A stretch of DNA of 44,358 bases, taken from contig NZ_RHOG01000022.1 of NCBI RefSeq assembly GCF_003946405.1, forward strand, positions 1-44,358. The letters are read 5' to 3'. Below are positions 23,829-25,723 of this stretch, in pieces. The DNA comes from Lacticaseibacillus yichunensis (GTDB taxonomy: Bacteria > Bacillota > Bacilli > Lactobacillales > Lactobacillaceae). The position numbers and the translations under genes were made by a program. Below the pieces are notes generated by a model. That model ran no database searches. It was not told where the DNA came from and saw only the letters and a program-made list of their open reading frames with translations. Each line of letters begins with the position of its first letter. Within the stretch, counting starts at the first letter, position 1.

Positions 23829-24704
23829 ATGCAACGAGAACAGGGACCACTGCGGATCTTGGGGGAAAGGGTCCGCTACTATCGCAAACTCAAAGGCCTC
23901 TCGCAAGCCGAGTTGGCCAAGGATATTTGCACCCAGGCGACCATCAGCCTGATCGAAAAGCGCAACAAGGTACCGAGTATGAACATCTTGATGCGCCTGA
24001 TCGGGCGGCTGGATATCACCATGGATGATATTGTCGTCGCTAATCACGACAGCATTCAGCAATCACTCAGCGACACTGACAAGGCATTGCGCCGCGGGGC
24101 TTATCCCCAAGCCGCCGAGTTTTTGGCCAAGGTCCGTTCGGAAAAACTCACCACGGAAGAGGACAAGCGCCGGTTCAACTATTACTCGGGGATGGTGGAG
24201 CTTTTTGCTCATAAAGCCCCAGACGAGGCAATCTATTACTTCGGCCGTGTGCTGACGCCGATGTTGGTCAAGGACCGCGATCTGCTCACCATCATGGCGA
24301 CGCTGGGCCTGGGACTCGCCTATGCCGAGAAAGGGACGCATGAACGCGCACGGGTCTATATCGACCAGGCGCTGGCCCTGCTTCATGATGCGCCATTTCC
24401 GGAAGGCCGCTATCTCGATGTTGTGATCACGATCTATTGGCACATCAGTCGCGTCTTTTTCGAATTAGAAGAGTACGCCGCCGTCTTGACCAATGTGAAA
24501 ACCGGCATCGACTTTGCCACGAAACACGACAGCCTTTTTCTACTTGATGAATTGTATGCGCTCCAGGCGCGGGCGTATGATGCCCTGGCCGACAAGCGCG
24601 CAGATGAAAATTATCAGATCGCGCTTGCACTTGCGCGGGTCAACCACTCGCCGCAGCTGTTAGCGGCGCTGGAGAATGAAACGAGCCAGCGCGAACTGGC
24701 GTGA
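23829..24704 (+). CDS. Helix-turn-helix regulator with TPR-like C-terminus (Rgg/PlcR/RNPP-like)
   Basis: A 291-residue protein. Residues about 10-65 form an XRE-type helix-turn-helix (LGERVRYYRKLKGLSQAELA, then ISLIEKR and VPSMNILMRLIGRLDI). The remaining 220 residues are helical pairs resembling TPR repeats (YYFGRVLTPM, GLGLAYAEKGTHERARVYID, LYALQARAYDALADKRADE). This is the architecture of peptide-responsive regulators of the RNPP group. No peptide pheromone gene is evident next to it: the gene stands alone between two strong terminators. It may respond to a peptide encoded elsewhere or to another ligand. Target genes are unknown. Confidence 0.82.
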   Translation: MQREQGPLRILGERVRYYRKLKGLSQAELAKDICTQATISLIEKRNKVPSMNILMRLIGRLDITMDDIVVANHDSIQQSLSDTDKALRRGAYPQAAEFLAKVRSEKLTTEEDKRRFNYYSGMVELFAHKAPDEAIYYFGRVLTPMLVKDRDLLTIMATLGLGLAYAEKGTHERARVYIDQALALLHDAPFPEGRYLDVVITIYWHISRVFFELEEYAAVLTNVKTGIDFATKHDSLFLLDELYALQARAYDALADKRADENYQIALALARVNHSPQLLAALENETSQRELA

Positions 24705-24711
24705 AAGACGA

Positions 24712-24763
24712 AAGATCGCCCCACCAGACAGTTGTTGATGTCTGGTGGGGCGATCTTTTTTGT
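24712..24763 (+). terminator. Strong bidirectional-type terminator
   Basis: A perfect 19-bp stem (24712-24730 with 24739-24757) and an 8-base loop, followed by a run of T. It ends the regulator gene. Confidence 0.92.
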
Positions 24764-24787
24764 GTGGCGGGCGAGACGCAGGCTGCG

Positions 24788-25166
24788 CTCCGCACCCTTA
24801 TAGTTGGGCTTCGCGGGGCAGGTCTGAGACAGCTAGGTACGCCCGTCACTCGGGGCGAAGTGCACCCCAAGCGCCGTGCTAGCCTAGCTGCTCAGACCTA
24901 AGCGCCCCGCTCCGCACCCTTATAGTTGGGCTTCGCGGGGCAGGGGTGAGACGTCTAATTGGGACTGTCACTCGGGGCGAAGTTCGGCCCCAAGCGCCAT
25001 TCCCAAATTAGCCACTCACCCCAAAGCGCCCCGCTTCGCACCGTTTTTCCAGTTGGGCTTCGCGCAGCAGGGGCGGGTCATCTAGGCAATCTGGTCACCC
25101 GATGGTTTCACCATCGACTGCCCAGACTACGCTAGCTGCCCGCCCCTAAACGCTGCGCGACGCACC
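24788..25166. repeat. Three tandem long-hairpin units with covarying arms
   Basis: Three units of about 122-127 bases follow one another. Each starts with a shared spacer (CCGCACC...GTTGGGCTTCGC) and then a long imperfect palindrome. The outer arms are GCGGGGC/GCCCCGC in units 1 (24813, 24904) and 2 (24935, 25028) but GCGCAGC/GCTGCGC in unit 3 (25062, 25152). The second arms are GGTCTGAG/CTCAGACC, GGGGTGAG/CTCACCCC and GGGGCGGG/CCCGCCCC. Both sides change together, so pairing is kept while sequence drifts. Each apex holds a smaller hairpin. The array fills the gap between two convergent genes. Confidence 0.88.
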
Positions 25167-25167
25167 C

Positions 25168-25668
25168 TTATTTCTTTGGCGCCTGTTTCTTTGGTGCCTT
25201 GGTGGTTGCTAGGGCCGGCTTGTTGTTCAAGTCGGTGCGGACCACGAGGACGTCACATTCGGCGTTTCGAGTCACGTATTCGGTGACGCTACCGATCAAT
25301 AGCCGTTCGACCGCATTGAGCCCAGTGGCGCCGATCATGATGAGATCGATCGAGAGCTTCTTTGGCAGATCGCGGGCGATCAGTGTTTTCGGCGCGCCGT
25401 ATTCGATGCTATAGGTGACCTTTTCCAGACCGGCCTTATGTGCTTGGTCGATGTAGTCTTCCATCGTCTTTTTGGCGGTGGCAGCCACTGATTCCACCAT
25501 ATTCGTATCAAAACTCGACACGTTCGAGAACGACCGTGTGTCTACCACGTTGACAAGATCGAGTTCGCCGTCATTTCGTTTCGCGACGGCAACCGCCTTC
25601 TGGAAGGCAAGCTCGGATTCATAAGAGCCGTCGATCGCGACCAAGATATGCTTGTATTGTTGTAACAT
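25168..25668 (-). CDS. Universal stress protein UspA family
   Basis: A single-domain UspA protein of 166 residues: YKHILVAIDGSYESELAF at the N-terminus and the nucleotide-binding motif GATGLNAVERLLIGSV (G-2x-G-9x-G-S), followed by VTEYVTRNAECDVLVVR. The tail after residue 150 is a short Lys/Ala/Pro-rich extension. It probably binds ATP and acts in stress tolerance. ATG 25668 is chosen for its distance from the GGAGG ribosome site; two in-frame starts lie 6 and 9 bases upstream. A TACAAT -10 box lies just upstream of the ribosome site (25693-25688, read on this strand). The stop borders the hairpin repeat array. Confidence 0.92.
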   Translation of the reverse strand: MLQQYKHILVAIDGSYESELAFQKAVAVAKRNDGELDLVNVVDTRSFSNVSSFDTNMVESVAATAKKTMEDYIDQAHKAGLEKVTYSIEYGAPKTLIARDLPKKLSIDLIMIGATGLNAVERLLIGSVTEYVTRNAECDVLVVRTDLNNKPALATTKAPKKQAPKK

Positions 25669-25723
25669 TGCCATCACCTCCGCTTTAATTGTACTTTATT
25701 GGCGCATGAAATGAAACCAGACG

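Follow-up and report, generated by a model that had tools for sequence, protein, structure and literature searches.

A strand-specific structured repeat family, present as a tandem array beside usp in Lacticaseibacillus yichunensis, recurs across the genus and in other families of the Lactobacillales

Three long hairpins stand in tandem downstream of a universal stress protein gene of Lacticaseibacillus yichunensis, and the locus raises the question of whether they are an isolated curiosity or copies of an element whose fold is kept, and of what kind such an element would be. We analysed a stretch of 44,358 nt (contig NZ_RHOG01000022.1; hereafter the window), in which the array consists of three head-to-tail units of 122–127 nt at 24800–25170 with start-to-start spacings of 122 and 127. 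Along the minus strand, usp (25168–25677; PF00582) comes first, its TAA stop codon overlapping the 5′ edge of the array, and is followed by the three units, a shortened last unit read by eye, and the terminator-like hairpin of the convergent plus-strand gene. In the reading direction, the first unit after the stop codon (25047–25170, start approximate) carries a perfect apical hairpin and scored 107.0 bits over 25049–25170 with R1, a covariance model built from 42 units; the second (24922–25046) and third (24800–24922) scored 122.3 and 131.4 bits, respectively. In the shortened fourth unit, at about 24770–24799 on the same strand, the unit start is closed as a small hairpin. The convergent neighbour is a plus-strand regulator gene (23829–24704; HTH_3, with RNPP_C below its cut-off), which is followed by a perfect 20-nt inverted repeat and a T run on its own strand (24711–24758), a hairpin outside the repeat family. 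A 15-nt tandem repeat was also seen at the 3′ end of usp (25171–25199), within the part that encodes its Lys/Pro-bearing C-terminal tail.

The initial annotation, which numbered the units in the opposite direction, had described three tandem long hairpins with compensated arms, and this description was borne out by the direct repeats, by the folds and by the arms in the sequence. The arms GCGGGGC/GCCCCGC in its units 1 and 2 and GCGCAGC/GCTGCGC in its unit 3 are paired in the window, as are GGTCTGAG/CTCAGACC, GGGGTGAG/CTCACCCC and GGGGCGGG/CCCGCCCC. All three units folded better than 200 of 200 shuffles on either strand, with z-scores, in the same numbering, of −5.5, −4.7 and −8.6 on the plus strand and −7.0, −7.0 and −11.0 on the minus strand, the latter being the better fold by about 10–13 kcal/mol per unit. 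The apex of its unit 3 is as it was described, but on the minus strand, which folds better, units 1 and 2 have as their apex CGCTTGGGG..CCCCGAGTG with a short loop between, and not CACTCGGGGCGAAGTG.

These hairpins are far from alone. At least 54 BLAST matches to the window array were found in its own genome (among the best 40 of 132 candidates), and R1 detected at least 150 units there, with compensated arms, so that neither outcome that would have refuted the initial annotation, a lone copy or uncompensated copies, was observed; the R1 counts are lower bounds because default filters missed the middle unit of the window in one search and found it in another. A profile search of 99 stretches around R1 matches, which together with the window cover 619 kb, yielded 248 units, of which 216 exceed 105 nt; they form 111 arrays of 1–6 units, none with mixed strands and none overlapping a gene, as called by codon usage, by more than 80 nt. 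Within arrays the units abut directly, without cassette genes in between. Partial units lie at the 3′ end of their array in 30 of 34 cases and never at the 5′ end, and decayed full units are rare (8 of 214 weaker than −60 kcal/mol). Array neighbours are rarely twins (17 of 101 at 90% identity or more); adjacent units have a median identity of 0.667 and a mean of 0.712, against 0.656 and 0.663 for units of different arrays, and for 135 of 172 units the nearest relative lies in another array. The arms of helices 2 and 3 fall into a few recurrent block types that are variously combined; there are also units whose arms belong to two types and do not pair, as if recombined. One six-unit array (L088:2461–3193) contains several near-identical units that reflect recent expansion on the spot; the corresponding locus of the sister species yielded one unit.

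The family extends well beyond this genome. In a first sample, R1 matched 24 of 41 genomes and 2 of 15 genera, and within the genus 28 of 30 species matched, with from 1 to at least 118 matches per genome. The sister species Lacticaseibacillus mingshuiensis (99% Usp identity and about 92–93% DNA identity at the usp locus) has at least 150 units by R1, and a model built from units of three further genomes, for which we infer the label 'casei group' from the occurrence of such units on L. paracasei plasmids, found at least 150 units in one 2.99-Mb genome. Across the order, at least 13 of 246 genomes matched at E ≤ 1e-5 among the best 14 candidates per genome, a search in which misses say little: the own genome, G043, one from another genus of the same family and ten from families f2, f3, f5 and f9, so that 11 of the 13 lie outside Lacticaseibacillus. 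With weak E-values of 2e-7 and 4.5e-7, respectively, the single f3 and g40 matches may be due to chance. All three of the loci checked from the order-wide matches showed tandem periods of 119–125 nt, 34 of the 39 matches had a CG-N-YUUAG-type bulge by pattern, and most ended CTGC...C(G/A)ACT-like by eye. The structured repeat family is thus real and genus-wide and reaches other families of the order. The window array had no match in plasmids or phages; the casei-group query matched 14 plasmid records (9 from Pediococcus and 5 from Lacticaseibacillus, about one unit each) and no phage, and units of two other families matched no plasmid. Three of the 14 records were inspected, and unannotated units were seen on plasmid records L270, L271 and L272 of L. 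paracasei (between PTS genes) and Pediococcus acidilactici.

Each unit forms a single long hairpin on one strand, composed of a 4-bp base, an internal loop, a 7–8-bp helix, a bulge of 4 nt (mostly YUUA) confined to the 5′ side, a second 7–8-bp helix and a long upper stem. In 148 distinct units of the own genome, aligned by fitting to the model and therefore leaning towards its structure, 97.0% of the pair cells were standard pairs against 80.5% after shuffling, 1034 cells were changed on both sides against 302, 30 of the 41 pairs had two-sided changes, and sliding the partners cut pairing to 33–41%. Because of this test, chance is excluded as the source of the window hairpins. Alignments fitted in the same way gave 92.0% standard pairs against 63.4% shuffled for 96 distinct units of other species of the genus, and 88.5% against 55.6% for 36 distinct units of other genera, with two-sided changes in 38 of 41 pairs. 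None of 500 shuffles reached the covariation score in any of the three fitted alignments, and slid structures were far lower, but 88 of 500 shuffles attained the observed value for one of five measures, further pair types, in the other-genera alignment. The layout of 4-bp base, internal loop, 7–8-bp helix, 4-nt bulge on the 5′ side and second helix also emerged from two alignments that were built independently of the model and folded de novo, one of G020 units (47 pairs, 29 with two-sided change) and one of units from species of a further family of the Lactobacillales (24 of 34 pairs two-sided). An unfitted alignment over all groups recovered 20 pairs of the lower part only, 17 of them two-sided, the upper stem remaining unaligned. 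The same fold thus occurs with other letters in many relatives, and the repeat family is therefore kept for its shape, which gives strong support to the earlier proposal that the fold rather than the sequence is conserved.

With respect to genes, the arrays are placed much like intergenic space in general. The gene pairs flanking 107 arrays were tandem in 69, convergent in 22 and divergent in 16 cases, resembling the 222, 65 and 75 among 362 background gaps of the same stretches. Relative to the upstream and downstream gene, 111 arrays were oriented opposite/opposite in 41 cases, same/same in 28, same/opposite in 22 and opposite/same in 16, with 4 incomplete, so array orientation is near random. 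A replication-strand bias in G043 (71 of 119 arrays among the matches listed, p 0.04, with the origin assumed at base 1) was too weak to serve as evidence. In L023, L040, L042, L045, L094, L119 and L125 the 5′ array edge comes right after a T run, TTTTTGAT then TCAGGG (TCATGG in L045), and this shared TTTTTGAT-TCAGGG junction is a possible preferred insertion context.

Comparison between species separates the loci from the units that occupy them. We placed 37 of the 111 arrays within 406 kb of L. mingshuiensis; 34 of these loci have units in both species, and at the other three no unit was detected in L. mingshuiensis but remnants were. Unit number often differs, the usp array having three units in the window and two in the sister species. 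Among 74 units, 44 had a same-locus match of 80% or more and 42 matched better elsewhere in the searched 406 kb, so that between the sister species loci stay while units change. Mean identity is 65–82% within species and 35–65% between them, except for the close pairs G000/G041 (67%) and G005/G043 (79%), and of 135 sampled units, 134 were most closely related to a unit of their own species or of that species' close partner; a unit tree gave clean clades for only two of six groups tested. At two of three sites compared in the casei group, units were found in all alignable species (five and four), and at the third, two of five species had no units or a remnant. Over larger distances, homologues of 67 array-adjacent genes of distant species (some loci overlap) lie in the own stretches; 34 of them adjoin an array there, 12 of these with the same side and orientation. 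The array is reversed in a distant species at two gene pairs (L227/L207 and L234 against L046; L232 against L013), which suggests independent insertion.

The account that we prefer, at about even confidence, is that the family is a non-autonomous, mobile-repeat-like element that spreads via a folded single strand; among the four roles proposed in the initial annotation, non-autonomous mobile repeats fit best. High copy number, species-wise identity, exchange of units between loci, near-random orientation, reversed arrays and a strand-specific fold all speak for it. A unit would be copied or inserted by way of its folded single strand, as RNA or ssDNA; new units would enter mainly at arrays already present, old ones would be lost through truncation and unit deletion, and each species would homogenise its own version; at the usp locus the array would be transcribed, as a by-product, as a structured 3′ UTR of usp. 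Some observations fit this account less well. No clean empty site or target duplication was seen among the 37 loci mapped in L. mingshuiensis, and the 3′ edges of own arrays are truncated. As a partner, the Y1 transposase was rejected, its presence being out of step with copy number: Y1_Tnp (PF01797), the sole transposase family scanned, occurs in 13 of 30 genomes of the genus and is absent from the copy-rich G006, G011, G001 and G014 (at least 118, 113, 61 and 76 R1 matches, respectively). The positions shared within the casei group and the 12 of 67 genes that keep side and orientation show slow turnover of sites, and constraint in place together with the rarity of decayed units is not expected of inert insertions. 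That clean clades were limited to two of the six groups in the unit tree also speaks against it. Ectopic gene conversion could produce the same homogenisation.

Strand-specific constraint in place is the odd part for a mobile repeat, and it keeps in play the main rival, a functional structured RNA that the host selects where it stands, acting either in cis within UTRs or as a processed RNA of the array, which we consider possible but hold only tentatively. We compared 24 orthologous pairs with an own unit in alignment A2, taking stems from the consensus structure; an earlier test of 31 pairs was biased in that stems came from each unit's own MFE fold. Substitutions were found at 70 of 1965 stem positions (3.6%) and 111 of 1018 loop positions (10.9%), a threefold difference in favour of stems. 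One-sided changes that break a pair were depleted (29 against 75.9 under scattered substitutions), those leaving a G-U pair were not (54 against 52.8), and two-sided changes kept pairing in 10 cases against 1.4 and broke it in 2 against 1.4; these counts take each orthologous pair in both directions and are to be halved for events, and the test favours good pairing in that the own units came from the best-scoring 150 and the pairs were 86% identical or more. Conserved G-U pairs (at one position in 145 of 148 own units) and a compensatory covariation that exceeds the shuffled and slid controls point the same way. Moreover, where the upstream gene is on the same strand (50 arrays), the array begins −4 to +3 nt from the stop codon in 28 cases, sometimes completing the codon, which could reflect target preference or selection. 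On the other hand, the 41 arrays antisense to both neighbours fold no worse than the rest, fold energy showing no significant difference by gene context, and the units match no Rfam family. If the repeats are both selected for their fold where they stand and subject to continual shuffling of units among fixed chromosomal arrays, they may be not inert repeats but an abundant noncoding element of a new class: an ancient structured nucleic acid, strand-specific and probably RNA, that reaches as many as hundreds of copies in a genome and occurs in several Lactobacillales families. We advance this proposal with caution.

A double-stranded DNA element, such as a cruciform or a protein-binding palindrome of the REP/BIME type, would account for long intergenic palindromes with near-random orientation to genes, but a cruciform extrudes on both strands and should be indifferent to strand. 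In 148 of 148 own units, 26 of 26 casei-group units, 12 of 12 G020 units and 94 of 96 mixed units the model strand gave the more stable fold of the two strands, the complement of the own units being weaker by 12.6 (RNA parameters) or 9.2 (DNA parameters) kcal/mol on average. Where the commonest pair type is Watson-Crick, G-U exceeded C-A by 183 to 45 in own units, 204 to 34 in alignment A3 and 21 to 1 in alignment A5; in own units the excess, summed by hand, is uneven (16:11 in helix 2, 53:25 in helix 3 and 114:9 in the rest). Because the fold is asymmetric between strands, a folded single strand, RNA or ssDNA, fits better than a double-stranded cruciform, and the cruciform role suggested at first is improbable.

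Compensation might also arise without selection if template-switch correction made one arm of the inverted repeat copy the other, which would explain both the two-sided changes and the slow stems; such copying should, however, erase G-U pairs and internal loops, of which specific ones are conserved, and G-U-leaving changes occurred at the scattered rate while pair-breaking ones were depleted, so that we regard this explanation as very unlikely. The fourth proposed role, a transcription terminator or insulator, was suggested by the position of the window copy between convergent genes, but we give it hardly any credence, as no T run follows the units at the 3′ edges of own arrays (by eye), convergent pairs flank 22 of 107 arrays, close to their share of the background gaps (65 of 362), and the plus-strand gene has its own terminator-like hairpin.

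On present evidence, Lacticaseibacillus genomes, including those of the food-used L. casei/paracasei group, thus carry an abundant component for which there is neither an Rfam family nor a description that we could find. Since the 41-pair fold is kept at mean between-species identities down to 35%, the family is a rich natural resource for studying how folds are conserved, and it opens to experiment the question of how structured repeats can spread and be exchanged when no transposase is apparent. Genome assembly, rep-PCR typing and the annotation of UTRs in these bacteria may likewise be disturbed by the repeats.

We also compared the family with known systems. Rfam 15 gave no match on the window, and relaxed searches with the window array and 19 of 24 other loci gave nothing reaching a gathering score; the matches below the cut-offs were miRNA-type or other families and were dismissed, including MIR1888 at 46.7 of 72 bits on an L246 unit. 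Separately, L268:452–772 resembles the Enterococcus sRNA EF1368_EF1369 far under its gathering score (63.7 of 730 bits). A literature search, in which subscription journals were thinly covered, found no published description, and lactobacilli are absent from the accessible part of PMC3733652. Judging from these searches, the family is apparently without a name, and we place it in none of the named repeat families, ERIC, bcr and BOX being compared by description.

Integron attC sites (VCRs) are similar in length and likewise keep a one-strand fold while their sequence varies, with core ends RYYYAAC and GTTRRRY; own units do end GCCCAAC (complement GTTGGGC), but this end is not kept in casei-group or G020 units and the units abut without cassette genes, so identity with attC was dropped. 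REPIN ends are a short conserved palindrome with a GTAG-type tag, whereas in our alignments no such tag was seen by eye at the unit ends, and arm sequences vary. ERIC elements resemble the present units, by description only, in length and in their single long stem-loop, but dense head-to-tail arrays of unlike units are not known to be typical of them. The accessible text of PMC2267715 gives ERIC as 127 bp with one long stem-loop; Lactobacillus johnsonii is represented there by a single family, Lac-1, tabulated as type G, which differs in its model length of 231 against about 125 here. The bcr1–bcr18 repeats of the Bacillus cereus group are also Gram-positive structured repeats, interspersed and partly MITE-like, some with conserved secondary structure, and 84 of 165 and 62 of 155 copies are transcribed; compared by description, they belong to another genus, and tandem arrays are not mentioned in the part of the source available (PMC3446304). 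BOX, RUP and SPRITE of pneumococcus, structured repeats of another lactic acid bacterium, insert slowly at present and are transcribed as UTR extensions according to the available portion of PMC3049150; by description, BOX is built of boxA, boxB and boxC modules, whereas here the whole hairpin is the tandem unit. REPIN and REP/BIME repeats with their RAYT (TnpA-REP) differ in having two highly conserved REP ends and a Y1 transposase, where our arms vary and Y1_Tnp is missing from copy-rich species, and are alike in their many intergenic hairpins, compensatory arm changes, tandem clusters and insertion into or next to existing copies, as the accessible part of PMC3116915 describes for REPs.
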